Below are positions 36,905 through 40,534 of a stretch of 64,000 nt of DNA, one piece after another. Under the pieces are notes generated by a model. It made no database searches. It was not told the DNA's origin and worked only from the letters and a program-made list of their open reading frames with translations. Origin of the DNA: Cellulosimicrobium sp. Marseille-Q4280. GTDB lineage: Bacteria > Actinomycetota > Actinomycetes > Actinomycetales > Cellulomonadaceae. The DNA is taken from positions 496,001 through 560,000 of the forward strand of contig NZ_CALPBY010000002.1 of assembly GCF_943181405.1 (NCBI RefSeq), written 5' to 3'. Both the position numbers and the translations under genes were made by a program. The number at the start of each line of letters is the position of its first letter. The first letter of the stretch is position 1.

Positions 36905-37810
36905 ATGACGTCCGACGCCGCGGCGACCCGCCGCCACGACGAGACCGGCGACGGCCGCACCGTCGGCGAGGTGGCCGCGGCGGTCGGCGTCACCGTCCGG
37001 ACGCTCCACCACTGGGACGCCGTGGGCCTCGCCCGTCCGTCGGCGCGCACGTCGGCCGGGTACCGGCTCTACACCGGGCCCGACGTCGCGCGCCTGCGCC
37101 GCGTCGTGGCGTACCGCGAGCTGGGGGTGTCCCTCGAGCACATCCCGGGCCTCCTCGACGCCCCCGCGGACGACGCGGTCGCGACCCTGCGGCGCGAGCG
37201 CACGCTCCTGGGCGAGCGCATCGCCGCGCTGCAGCGGACCGCCGCGGCGCTCGACCGGCTCGTCGACGCGCGCGAGCGCGGTCTGCTGCTCTCCCCCGCC
37301 GAGCAGGTCGCGATCTTCGGCGAGAGCTGGCAGCCGTCCTGGGCACGCGAGGCGCGCGAGCGCTGGGGAGAGACCGCGCAGTGGGCGCAGTACGCCGAGC
37401 GCTCCGCGGACCGCACGCCCGACGACTGGCGGCGCGTCGCCGCCGAGGTCGCGTCCCTCGACGAGGCCCTCGCCGCCGCGTGCCGCGACGGTGTCCCGCC
37501 GGGCAGCGAGCGTGCGCACGTGCTGGCGGAGCGGCACCGGGCGTCGATCGGGACGTACTTCGACTGCTCGCACGCCATGCACGTCTGCCTCGGGCGCACC
37601 TACACCGACGACCCGGGGTTCAGGGCGCACTACGACGCGCTCGCGCCGGGGCTGGCGGCGTGGCTGCGCGCGGCCGTCGAGGACAACGCCCGGGAGCACG
37701 GCGTCGACCCCGCGACGGCGAGCTGGCCCGGGTCGCACGCGCCGAGCGAGATCAGCGCTGATGACGGTGACACGCATCATCGGGCGCCCGGCGGCTCTCC
37801 CTCTCCCTAG
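36905..37810 (+). CDS. MerR-family regulator with TipAS-like C-terminal domain
   Basis: A 301-residue regulator. Residues about 19-88 form the MerR winged helix (RTVGEVAAAVGVTVRTLHHWDAVGL; SAGYRLYTGPDVARLRRV) followed by the dimer helix (about 90-125). The C-terminal part (about 160-275) has the TipAS pattern, WGETAQWAQY and YFDCSHAMHVCLGRTYTDDPGFRAHYD. TipAS domains bind thiopeptide antibiotics and other ligands and lead to activation of resistance genes. An about 30-residue charged tail follows. The VOC gene upstream is a likely target. The ATG at 36905 is the only sensible start. Confidence 0.92.
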   Translation: MTSDAAATRRHDETGDGRTVGEVAAAVGVTVRTLHHWDAVGLARPSARTSAGYRLYTGPDVARLRRVVAYRELGVSLEHIPGLLDAPADDAVATLRRERTLLGERIAALQRTAAALDRLVDARERGLLLSPAEQVAIFGESWQPSWAREARERWGETAQWAQYAERSADRTPDDWRRVAAEVASLDEALAAACRDGVPPGSERAHVLAERHRASIGTYFDCSHAMHVCLGRTYTDDPGFRAHYDALAPGLAAWLRAAVEDNAREHGVDPATASWPGSHAPSEISADDGDTHHRAPGGSPSP

Positions 37811-37874: not shown

Positions 37875-39212
37875 ATGGTCGAGAAGAAGGCTCCGGCAGG
37901 CGGACGGTCCGGCGGCGCGAAGAGCCGGCGCACGACGGCGGGCAGATCGCCGGGCGTCGGGGAGCACCTGTCCTGCGAGCAGGCGGCCGGACCGGTCGGC
38001 GGTACCGCGCTCATCGACGGCTACGGCTTCGCGTCGATGCCGGTGGTGTGGGCCGAGGTCGACGGGCTCGCGGTCGTCGAGGGCGACATCGTCATCGGCA
38101 CCGTCGAGGAGGCGAGGGCGCGGGACATCGCGACGCTGACGTCGGACGAGGACACCGACGTCGCGCACGCCGTGGGGATCAGCGGGGCCCAGTTCCGCTG
38201 GCCGAACGGCGTCGTCCCGTTCGAGATCGACGGCGCGCTCACCAACCCGTCGCGCGTGCACAACGCGATCGCGCACTGGCACGCCAAGACCCCGCTGCGT
38301 CTCGTCCCGCGCAACGGCGAGGGCGACTTCGTCCGGTTCGTGGGCGGTGGCGGCTGCAGCTCGGCCGTCGGGCGCCGCGGCGGGCGGCAGGACATCACGC
38401 TCGGCCCCGGCTGCACGGTGGGCAACACGATCCACGAGATCGCGCACGCCGTGGGCCTGTGGCACGAGCAGTCGCGCGAGGACCGCGACGCGTTCGTCCA
38501 GATCAACTTCGCGAACATCGAGGACGGCAAGGCGCACAACTTCAATCAGCACATCAGCGACGGCGACGACCTCGGCGGCTACGACTTCGGCTCGATCATG
38601 CACTACCCGACGACGGCCTTCTCCAAGAACGGTCAGCCGACGATCGTGCCCCTCGCCACCGTCCCGGCGGGGACCGTCATCGGGCAGCGCACGTCGCTCT
38701 CGGCGGGCGACCTCGCGGGCCTCAAGGTCATGTACCCCGGGCTGTCGTGGCCCAAGCCGGTCTTCAAGGACGTCATCAAGGAGCCGATCGGCGACGTCGG
38801 CGAGATCGCGACGATCAAGGAACCGCTCAAGGACGTCAAGGAGCCGTTCAAGGAGATCGTCAAGGAGCCGCGCGACGAGGTGGTCAAGCCGCTGCGCGAC
38901 GTGCTCAAGCCGGTGCGCGACCCCGGCCCGACGATCCGTGAGGTGGTCGAGCCGATCCGCCCCGAGCTCCCGGTCGTCAACCCGGCGCTCGGCAGGTCGC
39001 TCCCGTTCGTGCTCGGCCGCGACAGCGACTTCGTGAGCCGCTACCAGGCGGCGGTCGCGCAGCAGTCGGGCGTGGCGCAGGACGCGGGCGCGGGCACGAC
39101 GTCGGCCGCCGACCTCGCGGTCGTGCTCGCCGAGGTCGTCACGGCGCTCGACGCCGTCCGCGCCTCGGTCGCGGCCCTGGCCGAGCAGGCCGCGGCCGAG
39201 GCCGGGCTCTGA
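37875..39212 (+). CDS. Astacin-family (M12A) metallopeptidase with Lys-Glu-Pro repeat tail
   Basis: A 445-residue protein. The zinc site is HEIAHAVGLWHEQSRED (H187, E188, H191, H197), the full astacin signature, and the Met-turn is SIMHYP (240-245). The catalytic domain spans about 105-290. There is no signal peptide: the N-terminus is MVEKKAPAGGRSGG, unlike typical secreted astacins. Residues about 294-366 form a tail with KEP at 302, 315, 322 and 330 and KP at 338 and 345, each followed by Asp/Glu/Leu. A helical Ala/Val-rich segment (about 405-445) ends the protein. An ATP-grasp gene follows after 12 bp and a YbaY-like gene after that; AGAAGGAG precedes the ATG. Confidence 0.93.
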   Translation: MVEKKAPAGGRSGGAKSRRTTAGRSPGVGEHLSCEQAAGPVGGTALIDGYGFASMPVVWAEVDGLAVVEGDIVIGTVEEARARDIATLTSDEDTDVAHAVGISGAQFRWPNGVVPFEIDGALTNPSRVHNAIAHWHAKTPLRLVPRNGEGDFVRFVGGGGCSSAVGRRGGRQDITLGPGCTVGNTIHEIAHAVGLWHEQSREDRDAFVQINFANIEDGKAHNFNQHISDGDDLGGYDFGSIMHYPTTAFSKNGQPTIVPLATVPAGTVIGQRTSLSAGDLAGLKVMYPGLSWPKPVFKDVIKEPIGDVGEIATIKEPLKDVKEPFKEIVKEPRDEVVKPLRDVLKPVRDPGPTIREVVEPIRPELPVVNPALGRSLPFVLGRDSDFVSRYQAAVAQQSGVAQDAGAGTTSAADLAVVLAEVVTALDAVRASVAALAEQAAAEAGL

Positions 39213-39224
39213 GGGGCACGGACG

Positions 39225-40199
39225 ATGATCCTCGTCGTCAGCTTCCCCGACGACGACCACACGGCCGTCGTGGTCGAGCGCCTGCGGGCGCTCGGCCACG
39301 AGGTCGTCGTGCTCGACACGTCGACCCTGGGAACCACGGGCTCGCTCGAGCTCGCGTACGGGACCGGCGCACCCGCCGCGATGCGGCTCGTCGCCGCGGA
39401 CGGTGAGGGCGACCGGCGCGAGCACGACCTGCGGGAGGCGACGACGGGCTGGTGGCGGCGTCTGCGCGGCACGCCGCCGGACCCGTCGATCACCGACCCG
39501 GCGGCCGCGGGCTTCGCGAGCAGCGAACTCGCCGAGGTGTTCGAGGGCGTCGTCGCGTCGCTGCCGCTCCGCTGGGTCAACGACCCGCGGTCCGACGCCG
39601 ACGCGCACCACAAGCCGTGGCAGTGGGCCGTCGCCGCGGACCTCGGTCTCGCGCTCCCGCGCACGGTCGTCACGCGCGACCCGGCGCAGGCGCACGAGTT
39701 CGTGGCCGCCATGGGACCGGGCCGCGTCGTGACCAAGGCGTTCATCGCGCGTCTCGACGCGTGGCGCGAGACGCACGTGCTGGACGCCGAGGACGTCGAG
39801 CGGCTCGACCAGGTGCGGTTCGCCCCGACGATCCTCCAGGAGTACGTCCCGGGCGTGGACCTGCGCGTCACGATGGTCGACGGCGAGGCGTTCACCACCG
39901 AGATCGACGCGACGGCGACGAGCCTGCCGAGCGACATGCGCATGGTGCTCGACGAGGCGACGGTCCGGCCCGCCACGCTGCCCGCCGCCGTGCTCGCGCA
40001 GGTGCGGGCGCTCATGGACCGGCTCGGGCTGGTCTACGGGGCGGTCGACCTGCGGCGGACGCCCTCGGGCGAGCACGTGTTCTTCGAGGTCAACCCCGCC
40101 GGGCTCTGGCTGTTCTGCGAGCACCTGACAGGACTGCCGATCACGGACGCCGTCGTCGAGGCGCTCGCGTCCCGGGACCGTGTCAGAGTGGTCGCATGA
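39225..40199 (+). CDS. ATP-grasp ligase (MvdC/MvdD-like peptide maturase group)
   Basis: A 324-residue ATP-grasp protein. The N-terminal domain (about 1-110) starts MILVVSFPDDDHTAVVVERL. The ATP-binding part has VVTKAFIARLD, TILQEYVPGVDLRVTMVDGEAF and the terminal metal-binding strand HVFFEVNPAGLWLFCEHLTGLPI. The last motif and the overall order resemble ATP-grasp enzymes that form omega-ester or amide bonds in graspetide (microviridin-type) peptides. It sits 12 bp after the astacin gene and overlaps the next gene by ATGA, so the three form one unit. No short precursor peptide is visible nearby; the repeat tail of the astacin is a possible substrate (inference). Confidence 0.9.
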   Translation: MILVVSFPDDDHTAVVVERLRALGHEVVVLDTSTLGTTGSLELAYGTGAPAAMRLVAADGEGDRREHDLREATTGWWRRLRGTPPDPSITDPAAAGFASSELAEVFEGVVASLPLRWVNDPRSDADAHHKPWQWAVAADLGLALPRTVVTRDPAQAHEFVAAMGPGRVVTKAFIARLDAWRETHVLDAEDVERLDQVRFAPTILQEYVPGVDLRVTMVDGEAFTTEIDATATSLPSDMRMVLDEATVRPATLPAAVLAQVRALMDRLGLVYGAVDLRRTPSGEHVFFEVNPAGLWLFCEHLTGLPITDAVVEALASRDRVRVVA

Positions 40200-40534
40200 C
40201 CACCCTGTTCGGCACGGTCGCGCTCCCCGGCGACTCCCCCGCCGGCGCCGCGACCGTCCGCGTCTCCGTCGAGGACACCACGCTCCAGGACGTCGCGGCG
40301 GTGCGCCTCGCCGAGGCGGTGCTGCCCGGCGTCGACCTCTCCCCCGGCGGTCGGCTGCCGTTCGCGATCGACGTCGACACCGTGCCGCCGGGCGCCACGG
40401 TGCGCGTGCACGTCGACCTGGCGGGCGACGGCGACGTCGCGAGCGGCGACCTGCTGACCGTCCAGGCGGTTCCCGTGGACGTGCTCGGACCGTCGTGGGA
40501 CGCGGCCGGCGAGGTCCCGGTCCGCACGGTCTGA
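40196..40534 (+). CDS. YbaY-like beta-sandwich protein
   Basis: A 112-residue protein resembling the YbaY (type III secretion pilotin-like) domain: LFGTVALPGDSPAGAATVRVSVEDTTLQDVAAVRLAE near the start and PFAIDVDTVPPGATVRVHVDL in the middle. E. coli YbaY is a lipoprotein, but this copy has no signal peptide or lipobox. The ATG overlaps the ATP-grasp stop (ATGA). In this operon it may be a binding partner or a carrier of the modified product. Function unknown. Confidence 0.85.
   Translation: MTTLFGTVALPGDSPAGAATVRVSVEDTTLQDVAAVRLAEAVLPGVDLSPGGRLPFAIDVDTVPPGATVRVHVDLAGDGDVASGDLLTVQAVPVDVLGPSWDAAGEVPVRTV

Follow-up and report, generated by a model that had tools for sequence, protein, structure and literature searches.

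The repeat tail of a bacterial astacin as the probable substrate of a graspetide-type ATP-grasp ligase encoded beside it

Introduction

What does a graspetide-type ligase modify if no precursor peptide is apparent beside it? The question is raised by a three-gene locus of Cellulosimicrobium sp. Marseille-Q4280, within a stretch of 64,000 nucleotides that we call the window (contig NZ_CALPBY010000002.1 of assembly GCF_943181405.1, positions 496,001 to 560,000). The locus encodes an astacin-type metalloprotease with a repeat tail at its C-terminal side, an ATP-grasp ligase, and a small protein that resembles YscW and YbaY. We argue that the repeat tail is very probably the substrate of the ligase: a graspetide that is carried by a protease, with the recognition motif after the core. 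We think so because ligase and tail go together throughout a group of relatives, because the tails follow a spacing rule, and because related proteases that are not encoded near such a ligase have no tail.

Loci of this kind have been described before. Makarova et al. (2022) reported two branches of ATP-grasp ligases, 7 and 8, that are found with unrelated peptidases; branch 7 often occurs with a homologue of YscW as well, and no precursor could be predicted (PMC8939145). Their proposal was that the peptidases liberate peptides by cutting other proteins. From the paper's description, we infer that the ligases studied here lie within branch 7: they share the graspetide-class ATP-grasp, the several unrelated families of peptidases, the YscW-like gene, and the lack of a precursor. 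Our account differs from theirs in that the tail of the peptidase is the proposed precursor and in that the YscW-like gene goes with the astacin only. More recently, Carter et al. (2026) noted groups of graspetide loci with neighboring proteases, including their group 32 with diverse families of proteases, and considered these as possible maturation or resistance genes (PMC13097080).

Results

Relatives of the ligase follow tailed proteases from four families

We collected relatives of the ATP-grasp protein from named genomes (17 loci), from 221 genomes of the same family of bacteria, from 394 genomes around Roseovarius, from 396 genomes of the phylum, and from plasmids (five matches were taken up). 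One scan of viral contigs did not confirm any relatives. A cut-off of 335 bits gave 42 distinct proteins, and we kept all but two of these: L015, which lacks a protease and is placed outside the group by the tree below, and L007, which is at the end of a contig. Each of the remaining 40 ATP-grasp genes directly follows a gene for a protease, and these proteases belong to four unrelated families. Astacins are found in the relatives of the window's locus and in Oerskovia, Agromyces, and Cellulomonas; M43 proteases are found in relatives of Roseovarius, in Burkholderia stagnalis (L111), and in a further lineage from within the phylum (L105); trypsin-like proteases (PF13365) are found in relatives from the same family of bacteria; and there is one subtilisin (L101). 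The spacing between the protease and the ATP-grasp is mostly -4 to 126 bp.

All 40 proteases have a repeat tail, then a motif that reads P-F-[V/A]-[L/Q] or nearly so (P-[FL]-[VAI]-[LQI] covers the variants) and lies 49-87 residues before the C-terminus, and then a short end. Residues were counted in 38 of the 40; we omitted L070, whose tail has a frame break, and L044/L077, a single locus with an irregular N-terminus, but the tail and the motif can be seen by eye in both. (The break in the L070 astacin, which is upstream of the ATP-grasp, lies within the repeats, and could be a sequencing error or real.) The catalytic motifs are intact in all 38 counted proteases, if the subtilisin is judged by eye. 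What is common to all of the loci is the design of the tail, the PF motif, and the short C-terminal end, and not the fold of the protease. That the four families seem to be interchangeable would fit a tail that requires a protease and would equally fit proteases that require a tail.

In a midpoint-rooted tree of 68 ATP-grasp proteins, 42 form a group (support 100/98). The group comprises 20 members beside trypsin-like proteases, 14 beside astacins (we placed L007 among these by assumption), 6 beside M43 proteases, 1 beside a subtilisin, and L096. Four members of the group were found after our interpretation had been recorded. Three of these (L101, L105, and L111) fit, one of them with a new family of protease, and the fourth is L096. 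According to the first-pass annotation, loci that keep the ligase but lack the tail would refute the tail as the substrate, and none of the 40 loci with a readable protease is of this kind. The only member of the group without a protease is L096 (also L106, in genome G840), where the 3 kb that were read on either side contain no protease gene. Its ATP-grasp has changes at K130, D237, E288, and N290, all of which we presume to be catalytic positions, so it is apparently a decaying copy. More distant ATP-grasp proteins, with scores under 300 bits, follow other genes.

Some other loci look different. In L015 and L047/L080, which are outside the group, the ATP-grasp comes after two small genes, the first of which looks like a folded domain that ends in a short stretch with many Thr and Asp residues (and also Cys in L015). 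In L115, from a plasmid of Croceicoccus marinus, the gene before the ATP-grasp contains several repeats of a Thr/Glu/Asp-Asp-Asp pattern and resembles a multi-core precursor of a distant graspetide ligase.

Related proteases without the ligase lack the tail

An astacin is encoded in 16 of the 221 genomes from the same family of bacteria, and 13 of these astacins are at ATP-grasp loci (one of which is apparently split over two contigs and one of which has a frame break). All 13 have the tail, versus none of the three that are elsewhere (P = 0.0018, Fisher's exact test, not corrected for kinship). We place no weight on a Fisher value for the combined set, because these proteins have common ancestry. 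Adding relatives from plasmids, we have 15 control proteases with no ATP-grasp in the stretch that was read, and none of them has a tail: nine complete astacins (the three just mentioned and six from plasmids) and six M43 proteases. The six M43 controls are 47-60% identical over the matched part, and they are tail-less while all six of the M43 proteases beside an ATP-grasp are tailed. We used M43 proteases from plasmids because a search around Roseovarius for M43 proteases without the ligase matched in just 1 of 139 genomes, which was the Roseovarius locus itself. (There were nine plasmid records with M43 proteases, of which one was already in our set and two were left out, and 17 with astacins, of which we used six.) For the trypsin-like proteases, the 221 genomes provided no controls, as all 20 full-length members adjoin an ATP-grasp and one more is cut by the end of a contig. 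Another astacin, from genome G685 of the phylum sample, has repeats of another kind, with no tail of this design beyond the catalytic part; it extends past the end of its contig, so we left it out of the 15. Also, some of the plasmid stretches (L161, L165, and L169) have several peptidase genes (M43, M28, S8, M4, and M12A) and no ATP-grasp.

These results bear on the published explanation for such loci, in which the peptidase acts in trans for the ATP-grasp, either by cutting peptides out of other proteins or by trimming a separate graspetide, so that its own tail would be incidental (PMC8939145; Carter et al. 2026 make a similar remark on groups with neighboring proteases, such as group 32, PMC13097080). 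Maturation peptidases are indeed frequent in graspetide loci. But if the peptidase acted in trans, then we would not expect the tail, instead of the protease fold, to be the shared feature, nor would we expect the tail to be missing from related proteases that lack the ATP-grasp. Furthermore, a motif of the type that graspetide ligases recognize is present within the protease itself. The short spacing leaves no space in most loci for a precursor gene between the protease and the ATP-grasp, although more distant small open reading frames were not searched exhaustively. Overall, we consider action in trans to be unlikely.

Tail residues follow a spacing rule

If the tail is ring-closed, then acceptor and donor side chains should be regularly spaced, and they are. 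In the window's astacin, all 10 lysines of the tail have an Asp or Glu at +4 or +5, as compared to a mean of 3.2 (maximum 9) in 500 shuffles of the tail. The first-pass annotation, which was made from the window's sequence alone, had reported Lys-Glu-Pro at residues 302, 315, 322, and 330 and Lys-Pro at 338 and 345; these are correct, and there is another Lys-Pro at 294. Across the 17 proteins with tails of this lysine type, 279 of 281 tail lysines have an acid at +4 or +5. The same test succeeds for just 6 of 66 arginines in these tails and for 9 of 106 lysines in the rest of these proteins, and the ends beyond the motif have no lysines at all (0 in 1112 residues). The rule holds in each group of tails: 63/64 in the window's type, 75/75 in the Cellulomonas type, and 9/9, 121/122, and 11/11 in the others.

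The other 21 proteins have threonine in place of lysine. In their tails, 295 of 413 threonines have an acid at +4 or +5, versus 101 of 564 elsewhere in these proteins. For the trypsin-like group (19 proteins), the peak is at +5 (250/384, z = +35.8). By our grouping, there are five lysine-type and three threonine-type tails, and although their repeat units are unlike each other, they all obey the same rule, if weakly in one case (see Discussion).

Could the tail be an ordinary linker or binding segment that is charged and rich in proline, and which forms salt bridges or contacts the cell wall, while the ATP-grasp acts on something else? Low-complexity tails of Lys, Asp, Glu, and Pro are common on enzymes, and the modification of the tail is so far deduced from sequence. 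However, salt bridges would allow arginine as well as lysine, and arginine takes no part in the pattern. Proline makes up 12-28% of the lysine-type tails, which argues against a helix; together with the difference between lysine and arginine, this speaks against a salt-bridged helix in particular. Nor would a linker explain why threonine replaces lysine in other tails or why the presence of the tail tracks the ATP-grasp. We think that a simple linker is very unlikely.

A candidate recognition motif follows the tail

The first-pass annotation did not mention the PFVLG that follows the tail of the window's astacin, but this is the best-conserved part of the C-terminal region across the relatives. 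In the tailed proteases of all four families, the proline is present in 38 of 38 and the phenylalanine in 37 of 38, and an arginine precedes the PF in 19 of the 38. The recognition motifs of graspetide precursors combine proline with hydrophobic residues, as in PFFARFL or Phhx(1,2)h, and are found in about half of the known precursors (PMC8939145). The motif after the tail appears to fit this Phhx(1,2)h or RPF type.

There is precedent for a motif in this position. The fuscimiditide ligase ThfB still works, at about half the rate, if the leader is placed behind the core, and RPFG is the key segment (Johnson et al. 2026, PMC13003496). The same enzyme can also close rings on whole fluorescent proteins (PMC12291112). 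In both the C-terminal-leader fuscimiditide and our loci, a recognition element with (R)PF comes after the core; but the order in fuscimiditide was engineered (PMC13003496), whereas our loci would have it by nature, with an enzyme as the precursor.

The ligase is of the graspetide type

The first-pass annotation compared the ATP-grasp protein to MvdC and MvdD, and this is borne out. Its best match among NCBIfam models is TIGR04187 (GRASP_SAV_5884), at 209.7 bits versus a curated cut-off of 350, and MvdC and MvdD come next, also below their cut-offs. A profile of the family matches solved structures of graspetide ligases: 5ig8 (E = 1e-62) and 5ig9 (4.1e-59), which we take to be from microviridin biosynthesis, AMdnB (7m4s, 6.9e-57), CdnC (7mgv, 2.1e-48), and 7drm (1.1e-31), presumably from plesiocin biosynthesis. 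The residues that we take to be catalytic are nearly invariant across the 42 aligned ATP-grasp proteins: K171, R214, R239, and D275 are present in all 42; K130, D237, E288, and N290 are changed only in L096; and E206 is changed in one protein, which is not L096.

Ligases of the RimK type are distant relatives as well (TIGR00768, 3.5e-06; 5zct, 3.5e-08), and they suggest another activity: the ATP-grasp might add free amino acids to side chains of the tail or to the C-terminus, without forming any rings. Yet it is ligases of the graspetide type (5ig8, 5ig9, 7m4s, and 7mgv) that match best and over the full length, and added residues would not need a rule for the spacing between lysine and acid. 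We think that this activity is very unlikely.

For ring closure with lysine as the acceptor, the closest parallel is CorB, which is annotated as TIGR04187 and whose Lys-Asp isopeptide bonds, in KxxxD repeats (i to i+4), were established by nuclear magnetic resonance (PMC13097080). As in our loci, the corallotide system (CorA and CorB) combines a large repeat precursor, an enzyme of the TIGR04187 type, and Lys-Asp pairs at i+4. It differs in that the precursor is separate and has no protease, in that the product is further hydroxylated by an oxygenase, and in that it is reported only from Corallococcus (PMC13097080).

The astacin and its locus

The features of the locus are listed in Table 1. 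The three genes are arranged as the first-pass annotation had it, with 12 bp between the astacin and the ATP-grasp and an ATGA overlap (40196-40199) between the ATP-grasp and the third gene. The home genome has a single match for the ATP-grasp and a single astacin. Upstream, on the same strand, is a gene for what looks by eye like a MerR-type regulator (36905-37810), which ends 64 bp before the astacin.

Table 1. Features of the astacin locus, in positions of the window.
Feature	Position	Strand	Basis
Astacin (M12A) metalloprotease, 445 amino acids, with C-terminal repeat tail	37875..39212	+	PF01400, E = 1.6e-48
EGDI in prosegment (residues 69-72)	38079..38090	+	Resembles FXGDI latency motif of animal astacins
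Zinc-binding motif HEIAHAVGLWHE (residues 187-198)	38433..38468	+	Sequence, intact
Repeat tail, proposed multi-ring core (residues 290-376)	38742..39002	+	10 Lys, each with Asp/Glu at +4 or +5
PFVLG, proposed recognition motif after core (residues 377-381)	39003..39017	+	P 38/38, F 37/38 in tailed proteases, four families
Lys-free, Ala/Gln-rich C-terminal end (residues 382-445)	39018..39209	+	Composition
ATP-grasp ligase, graspetide-synthetase type, 324 amino acids	39225..40199	+	NCBIfam matches, solved-ligase matches, conserved residues
YscW/YbaY-like protein, pilotin fold, 112 amino acids	40196..40534	+	PF09619, AlphaFold model, distribution

Both the HExxHxxGxxHE zinc motif and the Met-turn (SIMHY) of the M12A astacins are intact in the window's protein. 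Animal astacins have a signal peptide and an FXGDI latency motif (PMC9848320). The corresponding EGDI is in the prosegment of all 12 of the tailed astacins in our counted set. Similarly, all six of the M43 proteases keep CGT[ME], which resembles the Cys-Gly latency switch of the pappalysins (PMC6949598). We agree with the first-pass annotation that the window's astacin has no signal peptide, as judged by hydropathy (the highest mean over 15 residues is 1.09 in the first 60 amino acids). The only NCBIfam match of the astacin is to LegP (NF045530), at 288.6 bits and under the equivalog cut-off of 300; this match spans residues 44-288 and excludes the tail. So the likeness to bacterial astacins of the LegP type is below the threshold and does not cover the tail, and the window is from an actinobacterium.

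The YscW/YbaY-like protein goes with the astacin

The protein encoded by the third gene scores 18 against PF09619 (YscW), under Pfam's cut-off of 22.6, and its AlphaFold model has the pilotin fold. It begins MTTLFGTVALPGD and has neither a signal peptide nor a cysteine for lipid attachment, in contrast to the pilotins of type II and type III secretion (PDB 5wec and 2yjl, presumably AspS and ExsB). The first-pass annotation proposed that this protein binds or carries the modified product. This is unlikely because of how the gene is distributed. It is beside all 16 of the astacins from the same family of bacteria, including the three without the ATP-grasp and the tail, and the flanks that were read around tailed proteases of other families do not contain it. 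Not every astacin has it, either: it is present in just one of the six plasmid astacin stretches and was not seen by the astacin of G685. We therefore regard the protein as accompanying the astacin and not the ATP-grasp.

The M43 proteases have a different companion, of about 110 amino acids, with the pattern GEWVxxxEE..PPSRG..GGW..YEI..RLxLxR. It is encoded upstream of the M43 protease in L011-L014, L105, and L111 and downstream of tail-less M43 proteases in L163-L165, so it accompanies these proteases with or without the ATP-grasp. Three of these proteins were scanned against Pfam and had no convincing match.

Discussion

We are quite confident that the window's astacin has two roles, as a latent protease and as the precursor of a graspetide, and that the ATP-grasp would bind PFVLG and ring-close the tail. 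The locus would work like a graspetide system as follows. In the cytosol, the ATP-grasp would bind the motif near the C-terminus of the astacin and would use ATP to activate the side chains of Asp and Glu in the tail. Each activated residue would then be joined to the lysine that lies four or five residues before it, which would give a row of side-chain lactam rings, with up to ten of them in this protein. In the sister systems, threonine would be the acceptor and Asp at +5 would be the donor, giving lactones, and the protease would be of the M43, trypsin-like, or subtilisin type. As compared to ordinary graspetides, the order of core and recognition motif would be reversed. The YscW/YbaY-like protein would serve the astacin domain, perhaps as a chaperone or an inhibitor.

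Several points weigh against this scenario. We did not find a precedent for a Glu donor at +5 from the lysine in the graspetide literature, as far as the available parts of it go. The ATP-grasp scores below the cut-offs of every NCBIfam model that it matches, and the AlphaFold model of the astacin (pLDDT of 38) is too poor to use. The 281 lysines represent far fewer independent events, because the loci have common ancestry and because the units that make up any one tail are duplicates. In the Roseovarius tails, a spacing of +1 (99/122) is difficult to separate from +5 (109/122) because of the period of the repeats. Finally, 118 of the 413 threonines in the threonine-type tails have no acid at +4 or +5, and the Burkholderia tail follows the rule weakly (7 of 14 threonines).

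What might a ringed tail be for? It may be a protease-proof rod or a binding part that is kept on the enzyme, it may be a segment by which the enzyme inhibits itself, or it may be a peptide that the protease sets free. Our tentative suggestion, which could well turn out to be wrong, is that this is a modular system: one family of ATP-grasp ligases rings the tails of unrelated latent proteases that lack leaders, by means of a natural follower, and the ringed tail, with its chain of lactams or lactones, stays in place as a working part of the active enzyme. In that case, these bacteria would be using graspetide chemistry on their enzymes and not to make free peptides. Microviridin, plesiocin, and other graspetides share the family of ligases, the class of chemistry, and a recognition motif of proline and hydrophobic residues with these loci. 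But the precursors of the microviridin and plesiocin type are short, with a leader at the N-terminus, and the peptide is released; several of these peptides are inhibitors of proteases. Here, the motif comes after the tail of a protease of 445 amino acids. A short precursor of its own, with the motif ahead of the core, is customary for graspetides, whereas it is the rings that define the class.

The first-pass annotation had suggested that the locus would be an unusual, self-contained modification system and that the tail may be the substrate. Our comparisons strongly support the latter, as none of the 40 loci is tail-less, with the crosslinks themselves being a prediction. The system is less unusual than it seemed: it is not specific to astacins, and such loci had already been described (PMC8939145). 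Searching the open-access literature by title or by the start of the abstract, we found no paper that names such protease tails as substrates. So the loci are known, and the assignment of the tail as the substrate appears to be new within that literature.

The assignment offers a testable answer to a published gap, namely the peptidase-linked ATP-grasp loci that have no precursor (PMC8939145). Systems of this kind would be overlooked if genomes were mined for short precursors. The rules on spacing (an acid at +4 or +5 from Lys, and Asp at +5 from Thr) could also guide the use of these ligases for stapling the tails of proteins. If our explanation is correct, then a graspetide recognition motif naturally follows the core, which is an order that was engineered in the literature that we consulted (PMC13003496), and ring-closing chemistry would extend from small peptides to large enzymes.

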